The position numbers were made by a program, and so were the translations under genes. Below the pieces are notes generated by a model. That model ran no database searches. It saw only the letters and a program-made list of their open reading frames with translations, and was not told the DNA's origin. A DNA stretch of 38,334 bases from Candidatus Thalassarchaeum sp. (GTDB taxonomy: Archaea; Thermoplasmatota; Poseidoniia; Poseidoniales; Thalassarchaeaceae), in NCBI GenBank assembly GCA_022451235.1, contig JAKUOA010000004.1:42996-81329 (forward strand), written 5' to 3'. Below, piece by piece: positions 10,944-26,859 of this stretch. Within the stretch, counting starts at the first letter, position 1, and every line of letters starts with the position of its first letter.

Positions 10944-11021
10944 GATACACGCAGTGTCCCGAGTTCGTAGATTAGGCTCATAAAGGGGAGTCAGGTCGGC
11001 GGGATGCTTGGAGGGACAATG

Positions 11022-11940: not shown

Positions 11941-11996
11941 ATTTATTCACACGGAAATGCGATACGATTCAAAAGGCGAGGGTGAACCCCTGCGTG

Positions 11997-14522
11997 ATGC
12001 AACGTAGTTCCGTAGCGCTGATGGTCTTGCTCTTATTGACCTCATCAGCCCCTGCAATCGACGCTACTGGGAAGGGAGTAATCTCCTGTACTCCGGCTGA
12101 TTTAGACATGGTTCCAGCTAGTTGGGATATTGACGACGGTGCTTGTGTTCGAATAGATCTCGGTGTTCTTTCTGCAGGAGACACGTTATCTTTCGACGTA
12201 TCAGCAGATACCAATGTTGACATTCTGCTATTTTCGGCAAGTTCAATCTCAGTCTATCAGAATGAACAGAATTACCGCTTAGACTCCGTTTGGCATTCCG
12301 ATTCAGTATTCGAGTCATTTCAAGGAGATGGCACTTGGCATTGGACGGCTCCCGATGATAGAGGTGACACCCGCTGGTACCTAGTTCTCGATAACATGGC
12401 TCATCCACAGGATCAAGGCGAGGGGGCTCAGGCTGGTAGTCTCGCTACAGTGGTTCTAGACGTCCAAGAAGTAGATAGTCCCGTATTCGGAATAGTCGAT
12501 ACCATTGTCCGATTGGATAGTGGAGGTCATTCTGTACTTGCTGGCCCACTAGTTCTCGACGAAGGAACTCAAGTCAACATATTCGTTACAACTATGCAAG
12601 GAGCGCCGGATATTTTCCTAGTGACTGGGACTCAAATGGAATTTTACGAACAAGGAACTACTGCTAATGGAATGGATGACAATAATGCAGATATGTTATT
12701 GGTTTTGGAAGAAAGAAGTATTTCATGGTCAGTAAATTCTGACTACTCAGGTCAGGAACTGTATCTTGTAGTGGACAATCGTCCAGGCCCTCCTAGCGGT
12801 GGTGCAGGTACAGGGTTCGTCGCAACCACTGTAGTAATGGATCTCATTCCAATTTTGCAACCAACAATTACCAACGCCTCTGACTTAGCTACAATAGACG
12901 TTGGAGCAGAGGTAATACTCGACGCTTCAAACACTCCAAACTTTTCAGATCAAATCGATAGTGAAAACGGCTTTCAATGGGATACCAACGGTGATGGATT
13001 CTATGATTTCTCAGGATCGACAATCACGGTAAGTTGGGCCGAACCAGCCGAGATTAGTATCGGGCTTAGAGCAGTGTCACAAGACGGTCGAAGCGCCACG
13101 GTTTATCTCAATACAACAATTCAGGATATTAGTCCACCCGATGTTAGTTTGTCTGCTAGTGATATAATTCGCAAAGACTTCGACGACGAACTCTTGCTAA
13201 CTGCGAATATTGACGATAATTGGGGGATTTATTCTGTCGAGTGGTTGGTTGATGAGGCAGTAATTCAGAACTACAGTAGTTGGAATTGGCAGGATGGAAA
13301 AACATTCACTTTCCGTTTTGATTCAAGTTACCTAGCAGGTAACCACGATGTTACCATTCGGGTTACTGACAATGAAGGACAAGTAACCGAGCGTACAGCC
13401 ATCATCGATTTGTACGATTCAACCCCTCCCTTGGTTCCACAACAAACAGTAGAGACTACAGCTATTCTTGGCCAACCTATTCAGTTAACCGCCGAGGCTA
13501 TTGATGCCGAGTCCCCAACTCTAACCTATTTCTGGGACTTGGACATTCAGACAGATGCCAATTCAGATGGAATAATGAATAACGATATGGATGCTAGTGG
13601 TTCTTCTATAACCGAAATTTTCCAACAGAAGGGCACCTACGAAATTGTTTGTACAATCGTCAACGAAGCAGGTGCCTCTACTCAAGTTACCTACTTAGTA
13701 TCCGTCCGTTCTTCCTCTGATGATGGTTCTGGATTAAGCCCAATGATGCTGGGGATGGCTGCGGTTGTACTCCTAATCATCATCATCGCCATAATTGGTA
13801 TGATTACATGGCGGCGAATGTCGAATGCAAGACTTGAGGCATTGCTTGAGGAACAAGCCGCTGCTGAGGAAGAGAAGCCTAGAGAACTCAGCGTCGAGGA
13901 ACAAAAGGCAATGTATGGTGCAGGTTCTGCCACTCTTGACCAGCCAACTTCAATGTCGACTACATCGCAATTTGGTCAGTATGGAACTGGTATGTCTGGT
14001 GCGAGTGATCCACAGGCCACAATTAGTGAGGATGCGGCTATGGGGGATTCTGATCTTGAAGCATTGATGAGTACTCCAGAACCGATTTCGGAATCTAATC
14101 AATCGAGTCCTGCTTCGGAACTTCTTAGTCAGTTTTCCGACGATGATTCTGCCGTGGAGGAAGAATCAGTAGAATTTTCACATGACGAGTTAGCAGATGT
14201 TTCAGAAGATGTTTGGTCTCCAGATGAGGATGATGAAATTGAACAAGAAGGTTCACTACCAACACCTCCAGCTCCAGAACCAGAACCTGAAGCAGATTCT
14301 CTCCTCGATGGAGAAGATCTTCCTGTACCTCCAGCACCCCAAAGTGAGGACACCTCGACTCTGACAACGCTAGAGGAAGATTCCGAACCTAAATCTAGAA
14401 CTGTCCAGCAGGATTGTAGCCAGTGCGAGCAACGCTTTGAGGTGACCTTACCGGATGGTCATGATATTGCACGAACTGCCTGCCCGTCCTGTGGCTCTAT
14501 TGAGACAATCCGATTGACTTGA
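11997..14522 (+). CDS. Large surface protein with PPC/PKD-like domains and cytosolic zinc ribbon
   Basis: An 841-residue membrane protein of unknown function. The signal peptide MQRSSVALMVLLLLTSSAPA is followed by two repeats resembling bacterial pre-peptidase C-terminal domains (about 25-155 and 160-290; each ends in WYLVLDN or LYLVVDN), then three PKD/Ig-like beta domains (about 290-580) with FQWDTNGDGFYDFSG and YFWDLDIQTDANSDG motifs. One helix spans about 585-606. The cytosolic part starts with a charged helix, is very acidic and Pro-rich, and ends in a zinc ribbon with Cys807-x2-Cys810 and Cys829-x2-Cys832. ATG 11997 is preferred over GTG 11982 because the signal peptide begins there, though neither has an ideal ribosome binding site. 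The topology suggests a surface receptor or adhesin that signals inward; the ligand is unknown. Confidence 0.75.
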   Translation: MQRSSVALMVLLLLTSSAPAIDATGKGVISCTPADLDMVPASWDIDDGACVRIDLGVLSAGDTLSFDVSADTNVDILLFSASSISVYQNEQNYRLDSVWHSDSVFESFQGDGTWHWTAPDDRGDTRWYLVLDNMAHPQDQGEGAQAGSLATVVLDVQEVDSPVFGIVDTIVRLDSGGHSVLAGPLVLDEGTQVNIFVTTMQGAPDIFLVTGTQMEFYEQGTTANGMDDNNADMLLVLEERSISWSVNSDYSGQELYLVVDNRPGPPSGGAGTGFVATTVVMDLIPILQPTITNASDLATIDVGAEVILDASNTPNFSDQIDSENGFQWDTNGDGFYDFSGSTITVSWAEPAEISIGLRAVSQDGRSATVYLNTTIQDISPPDVSLSASDIIRKDFDDELLLTANIDDNWGIYSVEWLVDEAVIQNYSSWNWQDGKTFTFRFDSSYLAGNHDVTIRVTDNEGQVTERTAIIDLYDSTPPLVPQQTVETTAILGQPIQLTAEAIDAESPTLTYFWDLDIQTDANSDGIMNNDMDASGSSITEIFQQKGTYEIVCTIVNEAGASTQVTYLVSVRSSSDDGSGLSPMMLGMAAVVLLIIIIAIIGMITWRRMSNARLEALLEEQAAAEEEKPRELSVEEQKAMYGAGSATLDQPTSMSTTSQFGQYGTGMSGASDPQATISEDAAMGDSDLEALMSTPEPISESNQSSPASELLSQFSDDDSAVEEESVEFSHDELADVSEDVWSPDEDDEIEQEGSLPTPPAPEPEPEADSLLDGEDLPVPPAPQSEDTSTLTTLEEDSEPKSRTVQQDCSQCEQRFEVTLPDGHDIARTACPSCGSIETIRLT

Positions 14523-14617: not shown

Positions 14618-17600
14618 ATGGAGAATGGTTCAGTGCGCTTGATTCGTACTGCGCCGAAAAATAAAATCTCTCTACCGGTTCTACTAGTAATTCTCTTTTT
14701 GTTACCTACAATGGCGCCCTTTGTAACCGTTAGTGGCGAGGCTAGAATAGAGTCTCAGGACTTTCAGATTTTAGATGAATTGGGAAGTGTTCTAAACCAA
14801 AGAGAACAAGTGGTTTTAGGTGATTCTGTTAGCAATATCGCTGGTCCTTTGTTGGACCAGGTTAGAGTTGGAGTACAGGATACTTCAATCGTCGATCCTC
14901 TCCATGATATCGATGAGGCTCTAGATGATGTCTTCATAGTAGAAACCGCCGCTCCTGTAGTCAATCACCCTGAACCTTACATTATTCTTACCGACGAGAA
15001 TAGTCGCCCCCCTGGAGAGGTACGAACAATCTGGTCAACTCTGTTCAATTTGACGGATTATGTCGTCTGGACTAGATATGTTGACAATGATGGTAATGTT
15101 GTAGAAAAGGCGGAGAGCATTACATTCCTAACCAGTTTACTCTCTCTTTTGGACCCCGAGACCGATTTCTTACTACACCAAATGGATATTGACGACGACG
15201 GCGATGATGATATTCAGGTCGGTCTCACTGTCAATTTGAATAATATTGATTTATCCGGGACAACTCTTTCTGCATCTCCACAATTAGATTACCAAGTTAG
15301 CGTTCTTCCATCAAGTACTACTGATTCCGATTGGGATAATCTGCAAACCCTTGAGGTTAGTATCCTCAAAGCATTTGCATATTCAGATGGTATTCTAAAC
15401 GAAGGAGAATCATATGTCTGGGTTATTGATTCTAAGTTTACCCACACCCCTTACGATTTTACTTTAGGTGTTGGTCTAGAGAGGTTTTCTTTCGATATCT
15501 CAGGTGCTGGAGCGGACCTAATTTTGTCGCTAGTCAATGCACTTACATTCGGGGTTTTCAATGGTGGAGATGAATCAGGGATTACCATTGCATCTATTGC
15601 GGCCCCTTACCAAATTTCAATCGACAATTCAGGACAAACAGAATGCCCAGATCGATATTCTCCAATCGAGTTGACAACTTTACCTTCGAGTGAAATATCA
15701 TGTGGCGTAACCGCAGGATTTGGATATGTTCACTATTCACCACCCGATTCTCAGGATGATAGGGATGTTTGGGAAGTTGCCTATATTGAGGCAGCAGTAC
15801 ATCCTAACCGACTTGCAACCACCCTTCCAGAAGAGGTCGAAGTAACCATTAGAACCGATAGTACCCTTGCAGACGGAACTGGTAATTTAGGAGAAAATGG
15901 CTTGACTACGTTAGAGTATTGGGCTGATGAGAGGGCTGATTTGCATATCCACTTTCATGAAAACAGGTCAGAAGTCCCTCCTGAAAATTCTGATGGTGTT
16001 TACGGTAATGTGACTGACTCAAGTGGATGGTTCCGAGGTATGCCGGAAGGAAGTCTGACCACAGAGGAGATTGATCGTACATTCACGATGTTGGGTTCTA
16101 AATCAGAACCCGAATTACCAGGTGGTCAACCAAATCGTCTGGGTTTAATCATAGGAGTAAAGAATTTCACAAGAGATACGTCTCAAAATGTCGATGACCC
16201 TTCTTTGCCTGTTAATCCTGCATATCCTCCTAAGACTTTAGTTCTGGTTCGTTCAGTACAATCTCTAGAATCGGTCGAATATCACTCTTGGATGAAACGT
16301 GGGGGCACTGACACAGACCATAGACGAATCCAAATTACTGCTGAAGAAATTCCTACCGCTTTAGTCTTCTTCGGCTCTTTTGAATTAGGAGGGGCCGAGG
16401 ATGCTGATACAAGTCTTGATTCGGGCCAAAATCTCGATTTCCTTTCTCGAATTTTAGATGTTGTTCTGATAAATATCGTAGATTTGTTCCTTGATATTGG
16501 TACTATATTGAATGACATTCCATCTGCTACGGTGGATGTAATCAGTGGAGGTGTTGGAGGCTCCGGAGGTCTCTCGGGCGAGACTCTTCACCTACTAATG
16601 CACAATAATTGGAGGCCCGAGAGGGAAGCTAGGGCCATATCCGAGATAGGTCTACAAATTGGCTCAAGCCCTCATCCAACAATGTCTGCTGATCATCTTA
16701 TCTTGTCTAAGGACAGAGAATTAGAGACTGTACAGGGCCGCTCTGGCCCCCAGACTCCGTTAGTTCGGGTAGCTGCAAGTTTACGATTTAGCGGGCTCAG
16801 TGCATTTACTCTGATAGATGAAATCGAAACAGACTCGCAGTCATTCTCTCTCCGGACATCATCTGAAAAACCGTTCACATTCCTTTACATCGATCATCAA
16901 CCTTCTAACCTAGATAATGCCGCACATCAGGGACTATGGATTTCCGACATTCCGGACAACGTAACAGCGGATTTAACTCCAGAATTGGCTACCTATACTG
17001 CCAGTTCTACTATCGATAGAATTAGTTATACTGGAATTGAAGGAAGTCAGAGACAAGCCGCCCATATTCTAGATATTCCCGCTGACTTTAATATTGAATT
17101 TGGAGATACAACGAAATGGACAGCATCAAGTCCAATTTCTACAATTCACGCACAGTTAACAGATGCTGAAAATCCAGTAACGATGAGTGGAGATCACTTC
17201 CTCTTCCATCACCATCCAGATGATGGAACGTCGACAATTTCGACTAGGATTTCTGGTCTGCAAGAGATTGGGTGGAAAGCTCCTGCTGTAGCTGGTGCAA
17301 CAGGTGCGATGGGACAGGGTACCGCCTTTATGTCCGTAGCAGGAGATCGTACGATGAGCATCAATGTTGATCATGCACCAACTCAAGATGAAGGAGGCCT
17401 TTCCGCGTTGGTGCTTATCGACCCATTGCCCTCAAATGTTTCAGTAGATATTCCAACGGGAGCCGATGCGGGGAATAATTTAGTCATCCCAGAATTGAAT
17501 ACCTCTCAAGGAGTTTCTGGAGTCGCCTTTTTCCTTGGAGGATTTGCTGATCTTGGTCGTTCAGTAAATACAGTCCTTTCTGGAGTGACCAGCGAAATTT

Positions 17601-18985
17601 CGACCGGCTCAACCGGTGGAAACGGGTCATTTTCTTATGGCCTAGAGCTAGATGCAGATAGTGAATTTGATCTCATATTTGAGGCAAGTCAGGGTAATGG
17701 CACTGCGGAAGAACCAGCATGGGTTCATGGTATATCCATGAACGCAGCTCCGAGTGGGATTTCTGATGGTTTCCATATTAGAGGGTGGATTCCAAATCTA
17801 CCGCCATTAATCGACATCACCGTTAGTCGTATGCCTAATTCAGAAGGTGACGATTGGACAATTATGTTGGGTATGGAGGGATGGCTCCCAGCCCGAAGTG
17901 AATTCATGCTCAATGCAAAGGGTGTCAATGGACAAGATCTCATGCTTACATTACAAGGTTTGACTGTTGGTGAGGCCACTAATTTGGGCATTGACTCTCA
18001 ATTTACCATCAGAGAAACCAGTGGTGGAATTAATGAAGTAACTACATCGACTAGGTTCGTACTATCAAATAGACTGGATTGGGTTCATGCAGAGCTGATT
18101 AACAGAGACGCAGGTGCACGAACAGAGATGTTAATCAACGATATTCCAGAATCAATAGATTTGCTAGCCAGCCTTGGTACATCAATATCAATTGATATGA
18201 TTGTGCCAGAAAAATATCGTCGGGATGGCCCAGCGGTAGATTCTATCATGTTACAACAGATGCAGTGGATGGAAGGTGCATGGTGGCCTGCTACGGTCTT
18301 CCTAACCGATGTTCCTGACTCGATTAATCTGACCACAGAAGCAGACGTAGATTATGATATCACGAAAACCCTAGCATTCCAAGGTACTCCAGTACTTGAT
18401 TTCTCAGCATCAGATAGCGGAATGTCGCTATACATTGAGGCCAATGGAAGAGCGATAAACAATCGCGGCGACATGATACTTCTTGCTGAGGGATTGACGG
18501 ATCGCATGGTGATTAAGCCAACCTCAGATTATGGTCTAGCAATTAGAAGCGGTGGTGACGGTGTTGAGAGAATTTATCTAAGAGCCTCCAATATGCCAAC
18601 AACACCTCCTGTGGTAATTGAGGAAGTAGAGGCTCTTGGAGAAAATCTTCGAAGTGCAACTATCCGAGTTGTTGAGATCGTAGGCCAATACAGCATCATC
18701 GAACTGGAAGATGTTCAAGGCGGGAGAATAATCGCTTCAGCTCGTGCTTCCGCTGAAGTTGATGCATTTGGTACAACTCTCGACCTTAGAGGCGTCCTCC
18801 TCGATGCTCAAACAACGGGAGGAGTCCCTACCGGAACGAGTATTGGAGTCAATGGATTAGCATCCGACCTATCTCTTCTAAATCTGATTCCTGGTTTTGA
18901 AGGCTCAACTCACCACATCATAGTCCCAGAACCATTTTCATCCGGAGTCCTGACTTTATTTGCTACTTTCTTGGGGGGTGATTAA
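14618..18985 (+). CDS. Giant secreted beta-rich repeat protein of unknown function
   Basis: 1455 residues with a signal peptide (hydrophobic SLPVLLVILFLLPTMAPF, cleavage near residue 41) and no clear C-terminal membrane helix. I recognise no family. An N-terminal region to about residue 560 includes an Asp-rich DIDDDGDDDIQVG element. From about 570 to 1330 a motif of the form [D/N]-hydrophobic-Pro followed by a beta strand recurs: Pro at 579, 635, 779, 821, 938, 1062, 1177, 1233 and 1327 (for example SDIPDNV, NDIPESI, TDVPDSI). The spacing is irregular. The protein is acidic with few cysteines. The ATG is preceded by GAGGTG within a hairpin. The next gene starts 1 nt after the stop and encodes a membrane protein, which may anchor or assemble with it. 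It is probably extracellular or lipid-facing; no enzyme motif is visible. Confidence 0.7.
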   Translation: MENGSVRLIRTAPKNKISLPVLLVILFLLPTMAPFVTVSGEARIESQDFQILDELGSVLNQREQVVLGDSVSNIAGPLLDQVRVGVQDTSIVDPLHDIDEALDDVFIVETAAPVVNHPEPYIILTDENSRPPGEVRTIWSTLFNLTDYVVWTRYVDNDGNVVEKAESITFLTSLLSLLDPETDFLLHQMDIDDDGDDDIQVGLTVNLNNIDLSGTTLSASPQLDYQVSVLPSSTTDSDWDNLQTLEVSILKAFAYSDGILNEGESYVWVIDSKFTHTPYDFTLGVGLERFSFDISGAGADLILSLVNALTFGVFNGGDESGITIASIAAPYQISIDNSGQTECPDRYSPIELTTLPSSEISCGVTAGFGYVHYSPPDSQDDRDVWEVAYIEAAVHPNRLATTLPEEVEVTIRTDSTLADGTGNLGENGLTTLEYWADERADLHIHFHENRSEVPPENSDGVYGNVTDSSGWFRGMPEGSLTTEEIDRTFTMLGSKSEPELPGGQPNRLGLIIGVKNFTRDTSQNVDDPSLPVNPAYPPKTLVLVRSVQSLESVEYHSWMKRGGTDTDHRRIQITAEEIPTALVFFGSFELGGAEDADTSLDSGQNLDFLSRILDVVLINIVDLFLDIGTILNDIPSATVDVISGGVGGSGGLSGETLHLLMHNNWRPEREARAISEIGLQIGSSPHPTMSADHLILSKDRELETVQGRSGPQTPLVRVAASLRFSGLSAFTLIDEIETDSQSFSLRTSSEKPFTFLYIDHQPSNLDNAAHQGLWISDIPDNVTADLTPELATYTASSTIDRISYTGIEGSQRQAAHILDIPADFNIEFGDTTKWTASSPISTIHAQLTDAENPVTMSGDHFLFHHHPDDGTSTISTRISGLQEIGWKAPAVAGATGAMGQGTAFMSVAGDRTMSINVDHAPTQDEGGLSALVLIDPLPSNVSVDIPTGADAGNNLVIPELNTSQGVSGVAFFLGGFADLGRSVNTVLSGVTSEISTGSTGGNGSFSYGLELDADSEFDLIFEASQGNGTAEEPAWVHGISMNAAPSGISDGFHIRGWIPNLPPLIDITVSRMPNSEGDDWTIMLGMEGWLPARSEFMLNAKGVNGQDLMLTLQGLTVGEATNLGIDSQFTIRETSGGINEVTTSTRFVLSNRLDWVHAELINRDAGARTEMLINDIPESIDLLASLGTSISIDMIVPEKYRRDGPAVDSIMLQQMQWMEGAWWPATVFLTDVPDSINLTTEADVDYDITKTLAFQGTPVLDFSASDSGMSLYIEANGRAINNRGDMILLAEGLTDRMVIKPTSDYGLAIRSGGDGVERIYLRASNMPTTPPVVIEEVEALGENLRSATIRVVEIVGQYSIIELEDVQGGRIIASARASAEVDAFGTTLDLRGVLLDAQTTGGVPTGTSIGVNGLASDLSLLNLIPGFEGSTHHIIVPEPFSSGVLTLFATFLGGD

Positions 18986-18986
18986 T

Positions 18987-19553
18987 TTGGGATTATTGGA
19001 TAAAATTCGCTCTGAAAATGAGGAATCAGAAGATTCTGACGCCGCAACTGAACGTGCTCATGAGATTCTTCAAATTGTCGGGGAGCGTGTTGAGAAAGTT
19101 CGACCTAGTAGAGTTATTTTCGCCTCTGTAGCAGTGTTACTGATACTGAGTGGAATCATGATCATTGGAACCTGGATAGTACCATACGACAGAACTTCTG
19201 TAGATGTTGTCTATCTCCAGGGAGTTGGTGGTCATGTTGTTTTGGTTGAATTAGACAACAAAGGATCCCGTTCAATTACTGACGTGCAATTAGATATTAG
19301 ATTCCTAGATGATGATAGTAATGAAATTGCCAGATCTACCTTCCAAACCGATGAAATTGCCGCACATACTTCGATTGCTGGCGATAACCTAGAACTGATT
19401 GCCCCGGGTGCTTCAGTTTGGGAAAATTACACCATTGAGATAATCTTAGATTATACTTATCGTGGTACACAATATAATGAAAGATGGACCTACAATGTAG
19501 GGAGTTGGACTATGGAGATGTTTACTTATGCGGCACCTATGCACTTCCTTTGA
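18987..19553 (+). CDS. Single-pass membrane protein with extracellular beta domain
   Basis: A 188-residue protein with a charged cytosolic N-terminus (about 1-40, acidic then basic), one helix at 43-65 (VIFASVAVLLILSGIMIIGT) and an outer beta domain whose pattern, LVELDNKGSRSITDVQLDIR ... LIAPGASVWENYTIEI, resembles FxLYD-type domains. The start is TTG 18987, with GGGGGG (18973-18978) 8 nt upstream; a longer frame from 18960 would overlap the previous gene. It sits 1 nt after the giant repeat protein, so the two are translationally coupled and probably function together. Role unknown. Confidence 0.7.
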   Translation: MGLLDKIRSENEESEDSDAATERAHEILQIVGERVEKVRPSRVIFASVAVLLILSGIMIIGTWIVPYDRTSVDVVYLQGVGGHVVLVELDNKGSRSITDVQLDIRFLDDDSNEIARSTFQTDEIAAHTSIAGDNLELIAPGASVWENYTIEIILDYTYRGTQYNERWTYNVGSWTMEMFTYAAPMHFL

Positions 19554-19629: not shown

Positions 19630-22600
19630 ATGGGACAGAGAATTGCGGTTGCGTTAATCGGGTTATTCCTAATTTCCTTGTTTCCAGTTGGTGATTTTGA
19701 TATCAATCAACCCGAAGATTCCACAGAGTCTCTAGATTTGTCTGTAAATCGCATAGAAATAGCTGCGGACCCCAATTCAATCCAAGACCTTCAATCCCCA
19801 ACTGTGAAAGAGGGATTTGAGAGAGTTAGGGAAAAATACGCTGATTCTAGTATCGGAGTATACACCGAGTCGGGTTTGATTCCATCCGTTCATTTACCAA
19901 ATTCTCTTTCTCATTCTCGCTTGGACTTGGCAATGATCATCGTTGATGGTGATGTGGGAATCTGGGATGCTCGTCTGGAATTAGAATCCTCAGCGGAAGT
20001 TGAGATACGAACAACCGTTCCCCCTTCCGGCTTCTTGGTTCAAGGAACCCCTCAGGAATTGGATAAGCTAACAACCAATTCTGTAGTTGTTGCAGTACAT
20101 CCAGTTCCAACCGGACTACTTGTTCACCCATTACTGACAGTGGTTGAGGATGGCGCGATTATGGTTGAGATACTTGGCTGGAAGGATGATGACTTACAGA
20201 GACATATGGAACCAGGGCTTGGTTTGGAAAATTCTCTTACAGATGTTGCAAGTAAGTGGCTAACCGATGGATGGAGTCCTGAGGAGGGCCGATACTGGGG
20301 CGAAATTCAACTTTCTAACTTAGCCAGCATGCTTGAAGACCCCGCTGTAGCATATGTAGCTCCTCTGCCTGTTTTGGAACTAAAGAATGACAATGCTAGA
20401 AGCCATATGGGAATCAATACGGTTGAATCCTTCTTCATCACAAATATAGATGGGGCGGGTCAAACTATTGCTGTCGGAGACTCGGGAATAGATCACGATC
20501 ACGGAGATTTCAACAACCGCATTGTCGGTAGAACTTCAGTTACTCCAGGAGATTCCTCTACTGCCGATTTATCCGATGGACACGGAACTCACGTTGCATG
20601 CACTGTGTTGGGTTCTGGAATGAGAAGTAGTGGTACCTATGAGGGAGTAGCGCCGGGAGCTGACCTATATTTCCAAGCGATGGAGGATGATGATACCGGT
20701 GCCCTGTACAGTTACGGAATCAATAGTATGTTGAATTCTGCTTACAACGCAGGCGCTCGCTTACACACAAATAGTTGGGGCGCAGGCAGCGGTTTCGGTT
20801 CTTACTCAACCCAATCAGAGGATGCGGATGACCGAACTTCAACTTGGGACCAATACTGGAACTATGATGGGATGACAGTTCTCTTTGCAGCAGGAAACGA
20901 AAGAAACGATGGCGTATCTCCACCCGGTACAGCGAAGAATGTAATCACCGTTGGTGGGCACAAGAACCGATACAGTGGTTCGCCGGATGAAATGTACTAT
21001 TGGAGTAGTCGAGGACCTACTGATGATGGGCGACTTAAGCCGGATTTAGTAGGCCCAGGTGACGGAGTCCGCTCATGTCTTTCCCAAGAAGCCGAGCAAG
21101 CATCTTCTGGCTGGTCGAATAATTGGTACATTGAGTACAGCGGTACTTCAATGGCAACACCAGCAACGGCGGGTGCTGCAACCTTAGTGAGACAATATCT
21201 AATGGATGTTGCAAATAGGCCCGCCCCTCAAGGAGCGCTTGTAAAGGCCTTACTAATTCTCGGTGCTCAAGATATGGGCGCTCGAAACATCCCAAACAAT
21301 GACGAGGGCTGGGGTAGGGTAAATCTTGTCAATTCACTTGTTCCAGATAGTGATGAGGGCATTTTTGTCGATGACCGTAGTCGTATTTCTTCCGGTCAAA
21401 CCAAGGAATATACCTTCGATATAACAAGAGGTGCAGAACCACTCAAAGTGGTATTAGCCTGGTCAGATTATCCTGGCTCTTCTCAGACTACTAATCAATT
21501 ACGTAATGACCTGAACCTAGAGGTAATTCATCCCAATGGAGGGACTTCCTTCAAAGGTAACGTTTTCAGTGGCGGGAAATCAATTGCAGGTGGTAATTTT
21601 GACGATAAAAACAACGTCGAAGTAGTGCTGATAGATAACGCAGGTGTTGGTACATGGACAGTTCGTGTAACCGATGATTATCATGGCGGAAGTAGGACTT
21701 GGCAACCATATGCTTTAGCAGTAAGGGGAGTCAACGTAAACGACCTTTCGCCCGATCCAACATTTGCTCCTGACGTTTCAATCAACCCACCAATCCCGCA
21801 AATTGGAGATCCAGTTCAGATTCAAGTAACCGTAGAAAATCTTGGTGCTGGATCGGTTTCAGATCTTGATGTGATGGCTAGGGCCGATGGCAGCCACATA
21901 TCCACTCAAACCATTTCAATGAGTCCTGGTGAGTCAGTAGATGTACAGTGGAATTGGACTCCATCTACTGAAGGTTTAGTCGATTTGTCTTTCCACATAG
22001 ATCCAAATGATTTGGTGGAGGAATCAAATGAAGCAAATAATCTACTTACTCATACGATGATAATTAGCGCTCCGGGAGTCAGGGTGACCTCAGATGAACC
22101 ATTCATGACTTTGGGTGAAGCAGATGACAGTTCTACATCATGGAATATGCTTCTAACTAATACTGCATTATTCGAAACTAATGCAACAATCGAAACAAGT
22201 TCTCCTGTAAGGTTGAGTGATGGTGTTGAATTTGATTGGTATTCTTCACTTACTTCAAACACCTTTAATCTGCAAGAGGCAGAATCAGTAGAGGTAGGCC
22301 TCACGCTTATCCATCCGGCTCCTCCTGAACCAGGAACGTATGTAATGACGGTAACTGGAACGGATATCGAGAACGATATTGAGTCTGAATTAGATCTGTA
22401 TTTCGATGTACCAATACTAGCCGCAGCTGATGTACTAATCACATCTGGTAAAATTCCAGTCAGCCCTATTTCGCAAACCCAACTACAAGTATTCGTAACC
22501 AACGAAGGTAACGGGCCTCAAACTTTCGATGTAGAGTTAAGTTCGCCTGCTGGTTGGCACCTGGGTCTGGATACTTTAGGGGCCTTTGAGGGCTCATCGC

Positions 22601-24120
22601 ACGGTTCAACCGGGACTCTTGCTGTGGGAGAGAGTAGATCAATCGATATAACCGTCAACCCGCCAGGTGCTATGATTCCAGCAGGATTGAATTTCGATGC
22701 CGGCTTGACAGTTCATTCTAGAGTCAGTAGTGACTCTTGGTCAGTTCCCATTACCTTAGAGGTCATGGCTATCGACCAACTTTCTGCAACTCCTATTAGT
22801 GACGGGATTCAATACGAGGTCGCTCCAGATGAAACTCTGAATCTCGAAATCGAATTCCTGAATACGGGTAATCGCCACTTAACCATGACTCCATATCAGA
22901 GAGCGATTCCATCTGGATGGTCGATTGTTGGCGGACTCAACACATTAGAAGCACCAGCGGGAGAAACCACAACTTGGTCGGTTACTTTGCAAGGTAATGG
23001 CCGAGCAACAAGTGGCGATTTCAAACTGAGATTCGCTACGGATGATGGTTTCTCACTGGATTGGAATAGGACCATCGATGTTCTATCAGCAGCGATTCCG
23101 AGTCTTGCATTCCACCAAGTAGTATTGGCCGATGGAACAACATCACCAACTCCACTAGGAGTTGGCGCGCATCCAGTTGGAACAGGTTTTGATTTGGCCT
23201 GGGAGGTTGAGAATGAAGGCACCTCGACTTGGCGTCCAACGACTTCAATTATCGTTCCAAGTGATGGCAATTGGGAAGCAAACTGTCCCAGCACACCATC
23301 ATCGCTAGCCGCTGGAGCGAGTAGTATAATCTGGTGCACGGTTACGATTCCTGTCTCAGAACAAGCAGGTTCTGAACCAGTAGTTACTCTAAGGATGGAA
23401 GGAGAAGGTGTTGTTGTTGAAAATTCTATTTCACTCCTTGTTGATTCGGTTGCGGCCGTAGTTTGGGATTTGCGTACCGAATCTTTTGCCCATGAAGGAT
23501 ACCCAGTTCAGATGACAATAGACATTCAGAATGTCGGGAATTCGCAAATCAATCACAGACTTGATGTAAATGCTCCAGATAATTGGAACGTTTTTATCGA
23601 CGATGAATTGTTAGTCATCTTAAGTCCGGGGGAATCCAGATCTATAGTAATCGAATTTACTCCAGACAGTGGTAGCGACGGCACTATCCAGTTGGCATTA
23701 CGGAATGGAGAACTCATCCAAGATTCTACTTTCAGTTTTGAGGTCGATGTAATGCCTGCAAGAGGCGAGAGTAACAGCATGGCATCTACTCTAATTCCCA
23801 TCCTCATTATTCTCCTAATCGCGATTCTTGCAGGAGGCGGATTCTATGTGTTCCAACAAAGGGGTGGTAATTTGGAATCAATAATGACAAATGAAGCTGT
23901 AAGTAAGATTACCGAGTCTCTAAATATCACCGAAAAAGAAAGTGGTTCTGGTATTGAGTGCTGGGTCTGTAGTGGTGATATCGTCGTTGGTGAAGCCTTA
24001 GCTTGCGGTAGTTGTGGGGCTCGTTATCATCGACCAGGTCAAGTAGGCGGATGTGATATTCTTTCACTCGGAAAGTGCCTTAATTGCAATGCGGATTGGA
24101 ATGAGTTAGTCGACGCATAA
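19630..24120 (+). CDS. Membrane-anchored S8 subtilisin-like protease with RING-like cytosolic tail
   Basis: A 1496-residue extracellular serine protease. After a signal peptide (ending near residue 25) and a pro-region of about 240 residues, the S8 triad is intact: Asp284 in AVGDSGID, His318 in GHGTHVA, Ser507 in SGTSMATPA, with oxyanion Asn423 in AAGNERND. A P-domain-like beta region with DLNLEVIHPNGG follows, then about five CARDB/NEW3 beta domains (about 710-1380; VENLGAG, VTNEGNG, FLNTGNR, IQNVGNS). A helix at about 1388-1409 is followed by a cytosolic domain with Cys1444, Cys1447, Cys1459, Cys1462, His1467, Cys1475, Cys1483 and Cys1486, a treble-clef or RING-like pattern. GGGG lies 9 nt before the ATG. 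It is likely to degrade proteins at the cell surface; the role of the inner zinc domain is unknown. Confidence 0.92.
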   Translation: MGQRIAVALIGLFLISLFPVGDFDINQPEDSTESLDLSVNRIEIAADPNSIQDLQSPTVKEGFERVREKYADSSIGVYTESGLIPSVHLPNSLSHSRLDLAMIIVDGDVGIWDARLELESSAEVEIRTTVPPSGFLVQGTPQELDKLTTNSVVVAVHPVPTGLLVHPLLTVVEDGAIMVEILGWKDDDLQRHMEPGLGLENSLTDVASKWLTDGWSPEEGRYWGEIQLSNLASMLEDPAVAYVAPLPVLELKNDNARSHMGINTVESFFITNIDGAGQTIAVGDSGIDHDHGDFNNRIVGRTSVTPGDSSTADLSDGHGTHVACTVLGSGMRSSGTYEGVAPGADLYFQAMEDDDTGALYSYGINSMLNSAYNAGARLHTNSWGAGSGFGSYSTQSEDADDRTSTWDQYWNYDGMTVLFAAGNERNDGVSPPGTAKNVITVGGHKNRYSGSPDEMYYWSSRGPTDDGRLKPDLVGPGDGVRSCLSQEAEQASSGWSNNWYIEYSGTSMATPATAGAATLVRQYLMDVANRPAPQGALVKALLILGAQDMGARNIPNNDEGWGRVNLVNSLVPDSDEGIFVDDRSRISSGQTKEYTFDITRGAEPLKVVLAWSDYPGSSQTTNQLRNDLNLEVIHPNGGTSFKGNVFSGGKSIAGGNFDDKNNVEVVLIDNAGVGTWTVRVTDDYHGGSRTWQPYALAVRGVNVNDLSPDPTFAPDVSINPPIPQIGDPVQIQVTVENLGAGSVSDLDVMARADGSHISTQTISMSPGESVDVQWNWTPSTEGLVDLSFHIDPNDLVEESNEANNLLTHTMIISAPGVRVTSDEPFMTLGEADDSSTSWNMLLTNTALFETNATIETSSPVRLSDGVEFDWYSSLTSNTFNLQEAESVEVGLTLIHPAPPEPGTYVMTVTGTDIENDIESELDLYFDVPILAAADVLITSGKIPVSPISQTQLQVFVTNEGNGPQTFDVELSSPAGWHLGLDTLGAFEGSSHGSTGTLAVGESRSIDITVNPPGAMIPAGLNFDAGLTVHSRVSSDSWSVPITLEVMAIDQLSATPISDGIQYEVAPDETLNLEIEFLNTGNRHLTMTPYQRAIPSGWSIVGGLNTLEAPAGETTTWSVTLQGNGRATSGDFKLRFATDDGFSLDWNRTIDVLSAAIPSLAFHQVVLADGTTSPTPLGVGAHPVGTGFDLAWEVENEGTSTWRPTTSIIVPSDGNWEANCPSTPSSLAAGASSIIWCTVTIPVSEQAGSEPVVTLRMEGEGVVVENSISLLVDSVAAVVWDLRTESFAHEGYPVQMTIDIQNVGNSQINHRLDVNAPDNWNVFIDDELLVILSPGESRSIVIEFTPDSGSDGTIQLALRNGELIQDSTFSFEVDVMPARGESNSMASTLIPILIILLIAILAGGGFYVFQQRGGNLESIMTNEAVSKITESLNITEKESGSGIECWVCSGDIVVGEALACGSCGARYHRPGQVGGCDILSLGKCLNCNADWNELVDA

Positions 24121-24183: not shown

Positions 24184-26859
24184 ATGAATCGTTCTTCTTC
24201 GGCCCGTCTGCTGACGGTATTGCTAGTAATCACGATGCTATCTCCATTGGTTCAGGCCGAGATAGATCCTCGATTAACTGCCAGCCCAACGGCTCAGGAA
24301 GCAGATGCAGATAATCCGGCAGAATATACCATCACAATCCATAATGATGGCGACGATGATATGGCGGTTAGCTTGAGTACTCAACAGGACTCATCTAATT
24401 GTAACGGCTTCAGTTCCACCATAGAACAAGTATCTGGAACCATAGGCGGCGGCGAATCTGAACAAGTGACTCTTACAGTCAGCGTAAATGAGCAGGCAAA
24501 TGGAGAGTGTGAAACCACCGTTCAAGCGACAGCAACCGGAGGAGCTGGGGCGCCCAAGAATGCCGACGTAACCGTAACAACCACTGCAGGAGACGGCGGA
24601 GGTCTCTATGCCGTCAAATTATCAACCGATGAGACAGATGTTGAATTTGATGGAAGCGATTCAGTAGTATGGGAAGTTGAGGTTGAGAATACGGGCGAAC
24701 AACAGGCCAATGTACAACTGGAGATGACCAGTGATAACGACTGTGAATCGGATGATCTAACCGCTGAGGTAGACCCTACCGTAGTTCAGTTGGATTCGGG
24801 AGATACTGAAACAGTCGAAGTAACCGTGGATGTTCCCGACGGTAGTTCCACCGAAGCAGGAGAGCATTGTTTCCTCCTTATGGCTACGGTAACTAATGAT
24901 CCGAATGCCGCCGATAGAGCCGAGGACAATCTCACACTCAAGTTGAGTGTACCAGAAGTGAAGGAATGTGATGGCTCACTGCAGACTTCTTCTCACAATC
25001 TCGACCCTGGTCAGACAGCGACAAATAGTTTCGAGGTAGAAAATATTGGAAATACTGAATGGACTGTCCAAACCCAAGCCCAATCTACCGGAACAGATAT
25101 CTCAGGATGGGTTGAATTTGATAGCCCGAGGTCTGCATTATTAGCCAAACCAGGAAATTCTGATGATAGTCATACTTTCACTTTCTCAGTAACGCCAGAC
25201 GATTCTGTTGAGGCGGGTTCACAGATCGAAATCAAAATACAGGGCCGTTCAAACCAAGGCGTTGGCTGTGAGCAAATACTCACAGTGACTATCGGGCAAG
25301 TGCATGAAGCTAGGCTGACCCTAAGCACCTCAAAATTATCCAATGTAGAACCAGGAACCTCCGATTCAGTTACTATAACCGTAGAAAACCGCGGCAATGG
25401 TTTAGATACGTTTTCTCTAACAACAATGGACCTTCCAGAAGGATGGCAAATTTCCTTTTCTCAGTCTTCTGTGACGATAAACAGTAAGCATAACTCCAAC
25501 AACGAAGAATCACTAACCGCTACAGTAAATGTACCATCAAACGCTCTAGCAGGGGACAATACTGTTGAATTCGGTGTGACTGTGAGTGGCTCAACAACCA
25601 TATTGCATAGTAGGGTACTAACAGTTTCCGTAGCCGCAAGACACGACCTCACTGCAGACATACTTTCGACTCAGCAAACTGGTCGTTCAGGCCAAGTAGT
25701 CCAGTTCCCAATTGATATTGTTAACACGGGGAATATTCGAGATACATTCAAACTACAGGTTTGTGATCCTAATGATCAAACTGGCTGTAACCCTCCAATG
25801 TGGGCTGCATCATATTCCGATACATCTGGAAACTCAATTACTCAAATTATTCTTGATCCAGGAGAATCTAGACGAGTGTTCCTCGACGTAACTGTGGAAG
25901 GAGAGGAAGATGCAGATTCAGTAACAATCCTGTCGCGAGTAGCAATTTTTGGAACGAGTGAGAAGATAGAGCAGACGATTAGTGTGATAGTCTCGAATTA
26001 CGATTATGGTATGGCCATCTCTCCCGAAATGCCAGGGCCTATTTCAGGTCAAATGGATATTGTTCTTCCACCTGGAGGGACCACGCAAGTCAGTTTTTGG
26101 GTAGAGAATACAGGTAACTTCCCCGGCGGTGATAGTGCAGTCATCTCTATGACAGGCATGGAATCTTCTGTACTCCGTCGAGTTCTAATCAATGGAGTAG
26201 CGGTAGATGGAAATATTGCGGTTCCTTCAGGAGACAGAGTCCTGGTAACAATTGAATTGGAAGTCCTAGAAGGTGTTTCTAGCGGAACTACAGGAATTGT
26301 AAAGGTCAGCGCATCTTCGGAGAAGAATGCCGCAGAAAGCACCAGTGTAGACTTGATTTTTGAGGTTAGAACAATCCATGATTTACGATTTACCCTAGAA
26401 GGTGAGGATGAATTAACTACAGATGAGAAGGCAAGTGTTGAGTTCATTCTGCACGTTACAAATCATGGAAATATTGTTGAAACGGTCCAGATACTAACTA
26501 GCGACTCTCTCAGAGGGTGGACAGTTAATGTCATCGAGGACGAGTTCGAACTCTCCCCTGGTAATTCACGAACGATTATCGTAAGGGTCACTCCTCCCGC
26601 AGGAATGGTGCAAGATGACACCTACCGATTCACCATTACTGTACAACCGAAAGGTATGCCGGTCGCAGGCGAACCTCTAGACTTGGAAGTCACCGCTGAG
26701 GTATCTTCCGGGCTGAGTTGGTTGAGCGAAGATAACGAACAGATTCTAATTTACGGATTAACTGGGATAGGTGGAATATTAGTTATTATTTTGTATTTCA
26801 GATCACGTGCAGAAAATCGCAGAATACTTCAAGCCTTGGACAACGAATCGAGTGACTGA
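24184..26859 (+). CDS. Secreted CARDB/NEW3-repeat protein with C-terminal membrane anchor
   Basis: An 891-residue surface protein. The signal peptide LLTVLLVITMLSPLVQA ends at Ala25. The rest is a string of about seven Ig-like beta domains of the CARDB/NEW3 (alpha-galactosidase-associated) type, recognisable by ITVENRGNGLDTFSL, DLPEGWQISF, VENIGNTEWTV, DIVNTGNIRDTF and VTNHGNIVETV; each ends in an AGxxT/DNTVxFxVTV-like strand. One helix at about 852-872 and a 19-residue basic tail anchor it. No catalytic domain is seen, so an adhesive, stalk or scaffolding role is likely. It resembles the C-terminal part of the neighbouring S8 protease, so the two may share origin or act together. No Shine-Dalgarno sequence precedes the ATG at normal distance; it may be leaderless. 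Confidence 0.82.
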   Translation: MNRSSSARLLTVLLVITMLSPLVQAEIDPRLTASPTAQEADADNPAEYTITIHNDGDDDMAVSLSTQQDSSNCNGFSSTIEQVSGTIGGGESEQVTLTVSVNEQANGECETTVQATATGGAGAPKNADVTVTTTAGDGGGLYAVKLSTDETDVEFDGSDSVVWEVEVENTGEQQANVQLEMTSDNDCESDDLTAEVDPTVVQLDSGDTETVEVTVDVPDGSSTEAGEHCFLLMATVTNDPNAADRAEDNLTLKLSVPEVKECDGSLQTSSHNLDPGQTATNSFEVENIGNTEWTVQTQAQSTGTDISGWVEFDSPRSALLAKPGNSDDSHTFTFSVTPDDSVEAGSQIEIKIQGRSNQGVGCEQILTVTIGQVHEARLTLSTSKLSNVEPGTSDSVTITVENRGNGLDTFSLTTMDLPEGWQISFSQSSVTINSKHNSNNEESLTATVNVPSNALAGDNTVEFGVTVSGSTTILHSRVLTVSVAARHDLTADILSTQQTGRSGQVVQFPIDIVNTGNIRDTFKLQVCDPNDQTGCNPPMWAASYSDTSGNSITQIILDPGESRRVFLDVTVEGEEDADSVTILSRVAIFGTSEKIEQTISVIVSNYDYGMAISPEMPGPISGQMDIVLPPGGTTQVSFWVENTGNFPGGDSAVISMTGMESSVLRRVLINGVAVDGNIAVPSGDRVLVTIELEVLEGVSSGTTGIVKVSASSEKNAAESTSVDLIFEVRTIHDLRFTLEGEDELTTDEKASVEFILHVTNHGNIVETVQILTSDSLRGWTVNVIEDEFELSPGNSRTIIVRVTPPAGMVQDDTYRFTITVQPKGMPVAGEPLDLEVTAEVSSGLSWLSEDNEQILIYGLTGIGGILVIILYFRSRAENRRILQALDNESSD

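Follow-up and report, generated by a model that had tools for sequence, protein, structure and literature searches.

Why does a protease that faces the outside of the cell end in what looks like a zinc finger on the inside, and what might such a tail do? The question is raised by one gene in a 38,334-nucleotide stretch of a Candidatus Thalassarchaeum sp. genome (the window). Passages of PMC6336850 describe Marine Group II (MGII) archaea, the Poseidoniales, as globally abundant users of extracellular protein without cultured isolates, and passages of PMC6864105 give one to four copies of an extracellular S8 subtilisin per MGII genome. A cytosolic zinc tail is not mentioned in the passages on MGII proteases in these two papers (PMC6864105, PMC6336850). 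The features of the gene, in window positions, are listed below.

19630..24120, + strand: S8 (subtilase) cell-surface protease with predicted cytosolic RING-like tail, 1496 aa (ORF; Pfam PF00082, CARDB, NEW3-type repeats)
19642..19698, + strand: hydrophobic core of the signal peptide, residues 5-23 (hydropathy)
20452..21315, + strand: S8 catalytic domain, residues 275-562, with triad motifs GDSGID, GHGTHVA and SGTSMATP (Pfam and motifs)
23779..23835, + strand: single C-terminal transmembrane (TM) helix, residues 1384-1402 (hydropathy; helix in 107 of 110 distinct tails)
23836..23958, + strand: predicted cytosolic linker, residues 1403-1443 (length 20-133 among orthologs; pN/pS 0.37)
23959..24117, + strand: RING-like (C4HC3) candidate zinc domain and ELVDA end, residues 1444-1496 (ligand motif, profiles, structure prediction)

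The 1496-residue protein matched Peptidase_S8 (PF00082) over residues 275–562 with an E-value of 8e-45, and the triad motifs were intact at residues 281, 316, and 503; the S8 fold and the Asp-His-Ser motifs of this peptidase family are thus both present. Pfam also detected Ig-like repeats of the CARDB and NEW3 types. Only two segments were strongly hydrophobic, residues 5–23 (signal) and 1384–1402 (TM helix). Beyond the helix, Cys1444, Cys1447, Cys1459, Cys1462, His1467, Cys1475, Cys1483, and Cys1486 (window 23959–24087) follow the pattern C-x2-C-x11-C-x2-C-x4-H-x7-C-x7-C-x2-C, exactly the spacing that a first-pass annotation of this DNA had reported after one C-terminal helix. In all orthologs whose TM helix lay inside the fetched stretch (one locus, cut before its helix, was left out of the count), the 15 residues after the helix contained 1–5 Lys/Arg side chains and the 10 residues before it contained 0–2. 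From this charge bias and the N-terminal signal, we predict that the protease lies outside and the tail inside the cell. The positive-inside rule therefore predicts a cytosolic tail, in agreement with the placement first proposed.

What kind of domain is the tail? First, its best Pfam match when searched alone was Prok-RING_1 (E 0.0052, 17 bits), although the tail did not reach the gathering cut-off of that family (15.5–17.1 bits versus 29.1); it was the only Prok-RING_1 match in the window's own genome. Second, profile–profile comparison with hhalign put all eight ligands of the tail in register with those of 12 Prok-RING_1-type tails of other Thermoplasmatota (probability 98, score 60); several of the 12 score above Pfam's cut-off. 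Single zinc-ribbon tails aligned with its first half only (score 40). The tail profile also found proteins of other Thermoplasmatota whose fingers exceed Pfam's cut-off, with E-values of 4e-6 to 3e-5. Third, an AlphaFold model of the tail (pLDDT 89, pTM 0.73) had RING domains, including Bre1, Ring1B, and Rad18, as its 14 best Foldseek matches, all full length but with weak E-values (best 0.077); Ring1B gave the highest TM-score (0.63, 2.4 Å), and rubredoxin and adenylate-kinase structures were also matched. As a yardstick, the model of a bona fide Prok-RING_1 domain gave an E-value of 0.043, a TM-score of 0.74, and a probability of 1.00. From the profile, AlphaFold, and Foldseek results together, we therefore call the tail RING-like, a fold that we consider probable. 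The treble-clef or RING-like zinc domain of the first-pass annotation is thus borne out by two approaches that agree, below the Pfam cut-off and with weak E-values. The last 53 residues would then form a two-zinc C4HC3 treble clef, a RING/PHD-like cross-brace related to Prok-RING_1; both zinc binding and the cross-brace are predicted.

A different fold, two tandem zinc ribbons in place of a cross-brace, would be compatible with several of the functions weighed below. The double zinc ribbon is a common accessory module in prokaryotes, and the Pfam DZR profile matched 34 of 38 homologous tails weakly, Zn_ribbon_3 matched one tail at 5e-6, other MGII proteins have single zinc ribbons that the first half of the tail resembles, and rubredoxins were among the Foldseek matches. 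Against these resemblances, the fifth ligand is a histidine in a GAR[YF]H context in every tail, Prok-RING_1 matched 36 of the 38 tails (weakly, as DZR did) and Prok-RING_1 tails aligned over the full length, and the best full-length structural matches were RINGs. We judge the double ribbon unlikely. Three orthologs from genus g15 have H-x2-C, the spacing of Prok-RING_1 tails, and the longer His-to-Cys loop of the window's version may thus be derived.

The tail is conserved throughout the order. In 390 Thermoplasmatota genomes, which include 127 Poseidoniales, it was matched at E 0.001 in 110 of the 127 and strongly (E 5e-15 or better) in 109, the strong matches falling at one locus per genome. 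Most of 59 searched genomes carried it, in the main as the C-terminus of a ~1500-residue ORF, and a public genome collection yielded 189 relatives, the best 80 of which bore MGII titles (Thalassarchaeaceae, Thalassarchaeum, Poseidoniales, Poseidonia) or were unspecified Euryarchaeota. Among 110 distinct homologous tails, all eight ligands were complete in 109, the remaining tail having unread bases, and a search for natural ligand losses from which zinc pairing could be deduced found none in this set. A clear TM helix preceded 107 of them, the other three belonging to short ORFs or lying just below the hydropathy threshold. The check proposed in the first-pass annotation, whether MGII S8 proteases conserve this tail, thus comes out positive order-wide. 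In 38 aligned tails, ten columns were invariant (C5, C8, C20, C23, G24, A25, R26, H28, C44, and C47). C36 came close, since only the three H-x2-C rows have it out of register. GARYH was conserved too, as were residues other than ligands at the CW and ELVxA/FVxA positions. Within the genus, pN/pS rose from 0.18 in the tail to 0.37 in the linker, 0.43 in the TM helix, and 0.47 in the final Ig domain, ratios that are only comparative because synonymous sites are near saturation. By this measure, purifying selection made the tail the most constrained of the four C-terminal segments compared.

Such constraint bears on one possible role for a finger behind a membrane helix, that of a fast-folding zinc knot that would stop translocation and fix the C-terminus inside the cell with no specific partner. 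A passive plug sits poorly with the purifying selection, which is stronger on the tail than on the TM helix or linker, and with the conserved GARYH and non-ligand CW and ELVxA/FVxA positions, which exceed a plug's needs. It does fit what happens where the finger is missing. In genera g5, g6, g20, and g18 and in two g10 genomes, the protease and its TM helix are kept without the finger, and the protein ends in PGWLWD..W.PDP, in a helical-looking segment of GWS type, in another helical-looking segment, or in nothing recognisable; the g18 protease has almost no tail after the helix. A Pfam scan of these replacement tails found no significant family. That unrelated short tails, or almost none, can stand in for the finger would also suit a mere anchor or stop-transfer plug. 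Weighing both sides, we regard the plug as rather improbable.

On a protease tree with its root drawn at the midpoint and a long-branch paralog included, the distribution of the finger needs at least 5 changes, at least 3 of them forced by starred branches, and the presence of the finger in both Poseidoniales families suggests that it is ancestral. The replacement tails recur on other proteins. Within the window's genome, one further surface protein has a PGWLWD tail after a TM helix, and a GLPxGWTMxQW (GWTMEQW-type) tail ends three surface proteins, including a second S8 protease. These three, L172, L260, and L261, have it as a cytosolic GLPxGWTMxQWxxYG tail after the TM helix, and L176 ends in PGWLWDAEKEEWVPDPDH; such tails may be shared docking tags. 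The surface proteins of this group thus appear to draw on a set of several short tails on the cytosolic side. The RING-like tail was seen only on this protease. That PGWLWD and GWTMEQW-type tails recur after TM helices of other surface proteins is what would be expected of exchangeable docking modules.

The gene also has constant company, listed here by window position.

11982..14522, + strand: PKD-domain surface protein (PKD_Zn), TM residues 590-608, cytosolic C-terminal zinc ribbon residues 812-837 (14415-14492); ribbon in nearly all orthologs seen
14618..18985, + strand: surf1455, a large surface protein in the conserved cluster, no Pfam match
18960..19553, + strand: TM197, a protein of 197 aa with a single TM, in the conserved cluster
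24184..26859, + strand: NEW3-repeat surface protein (NEW891), NCBIfam choice-of-anchor T, C-terminal TM; conserved cluster

The order PKD_Zn, surf1455, TM197, S8, NEW891, nuo operon was kept in both Poseidoniales families wherever the contig reached. Window positions 11004–32430 hold L15e, five surface or membrane proteins, and nuoABCDHI in a gene order common to both families. PKD_Zn has one TM helix followed, ~200 residues later on the cytosolic side, by its zinc ribbon, and the ribbon is absent in one g20 genome in which the S8 finger is absent as well. No recognised signalling gene was found in the conserved cluster. This last result bears on a regulatory role, in which the tail would switch the protease in response to zinc, to the redox state, or to a ligand in the cytosol, or would report proteolysis inward, the link to signalling that the first-pass annotation had raised. 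A conserved domain outside, another inside, and a single helix between them are the layout such a device would have. A single helix and a linker that varies from 20 to 133 residues among orthologs would conduct a conformational change poorly, however, and the ligands never vary; we think a regulatory device improbable.

Could the tail instead be a ubiquitin ligase? As a RING E3, it would conjugate a ubiquitin-like modifier of the SAMP type to membrane or cytosolic substrates, and its RING-like fold and its layout, similar to that of eukaryotic PA-TM-RING proteins (PMC4021871), are compatible with this activity. An E1-like ThiF/MoeB protein was present in 38 of 39 genomes, as it is in most control prokaryotes. 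A search for E2 in 29 relatives alone matched no control and was therefore widened to the whole phylum, where the UQ_con profile exceeded its cut-off in 81 of the 390 Thermoplasmatota genomes yet in a single one of the 127 Poseidoniales. It found no E2 in the window's own genome, which is 88% complete. The lone Poseidoniales E2 (G267:C119:3149-3331) is a possible contaminant. RING E3 enzymes bind E2 through a hydrophobic residue before C2, a helix tryptophan, a proline after C7, and a basic linchpin after C8. Comparable E2 contacts have been described for a Caldiarchaeum RING (PMC5654768). Of the 38 tails, none had a tryptophan between H5 and C7, two had a proline after C7, one had a basic residue after C8, and half had a hydrophobic residue preceding C2. 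The tail thus lacks the E2-binding set of a RING E3, and no E2 was found in the same organism. Because E2 is nearly absent from Poseidoniales and the contact residues are absent or unconserved, E3 function is very unlikely. A ubiquitin-type form of the turnover role that had been proposed accordingly finds no support, with no E2 found in 126 of the 127 genomes.

How does the tail compare with known systems? Prok-RING_1 (PF14446) shares with it the C4HC3 ligand order, a CGAxYH core, and a C-terminal position, but has H-x2-C where the tails mostly have a longer H-x(4-7)-C (g15 orthologs excepted); the S8 tail also differs in having a TM helix that connects it with a protease and in scoring 15–17 bits against the 29.1 cut-off. 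The variant RING of Nse1 likewise has the C4HC3 order. It gave a nearly full-length sequence match to the tail (PDB 2ct0, 7dg2; E 0.11) and is a Foldseek neighbour of the Prok-RING_1 yardstick, but Nse1 is a soluble subunit of the SMC5/6 complex. Similar in layout are the eukaryotic PA-TM-RING ligases such as RNF13 and GRAIL, in which an extracellular domain, a TM helix, and a RING are an established combination (PMC4021871). Like the S8 protein, they have a signal peptide, an extracellular domain, a single TM helix, and a cytosolic RING-type finger (PMC4021871); unlike it, they have no catalytic protease, are of the RING-H2 type, and work with E2 enzymes, which Poseidoniales appear to lack. 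No PA domain appeared among the Pfam matches of the S8 protein up to an E-value of 10.

The first-pass annotation had known no established example of this architecture. For an S8 protease with a TM helix and a RING-like tail, this stands, as we found no precedent in the open-access literature searched; for an extracellular domain, TM helix, and RING in general, the eukaryotic ligases provide one. Nor is a RING-like tail on a membrane surface protein confined to this protease. In another Thermoplasmatota family, L104 (947-3871, − strand) and L105 (882-3815, + strand) encode a surface protein with Ig domains, not related to the protease, that has a TM helix and a C4HC3 cytosolic tail, and the two genomes do encode E2. 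Prok-RING_1 fingers also end long coiled-coil or DUF835 proteins (L098-L103, L106, L115), the two DUF835 proteins examined adjoining each other in L099, and C-terminal Prok-RING_1-like fingers occur on an ABC-transporter ATPase identified by Pfam (L108 740-1624, + strand) and on a protein that looks ATPase-like by eye (L116 668-1873, + strand). Two sets of candidates were rejected as relatives of the protease: Prok-RING_1 proteins of 1000–1600 residues from another Thermoplasmatota family, which are coiled-coil or DUF835 proteins and not proteases, and zinc-ribbon proteins of 934–981 residues, which match the tail weakly but belong to a different family with four ligands only.

Taken with the alternatives above, we lean, on balance, toward the tail being a zinc-stabilised cytosolic protein-docking module, RING-like, belonging to a conserved surface-protein cluster, and not a ubiquitin E3. 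A single TM helix would hold the zinc domain in the cytosol behind the extracellular protease, and this replaceable module would dock the protease to a cytosolic or membrane partner, to which neighbouring surface proteins of the cluster are perhaps also tied. Docking, the function we infer, would fix the position or assembly of the protease. A bolder version, in which abundant marine archaea use a single TM helix to couple a surface protease to an internal RING-type hub, so as to sense proteolysis outside the cell across the membrane or to run an E2-independent conjugation or degradation device, strikes us as a long shot.

For MGII biology, the tail offers a specific handle, predicted to be cytosolic, on an order-wide S8 protease within a conserved surface-protein cluster; it is single-copy and strongly conserved, and its replacement in some genera shows that such handles are swapped among lineages. 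A RING-like domain that persists where E2 was not found would also bear on the roles that RINGs may have had before, or apart from, ubiquitylation.
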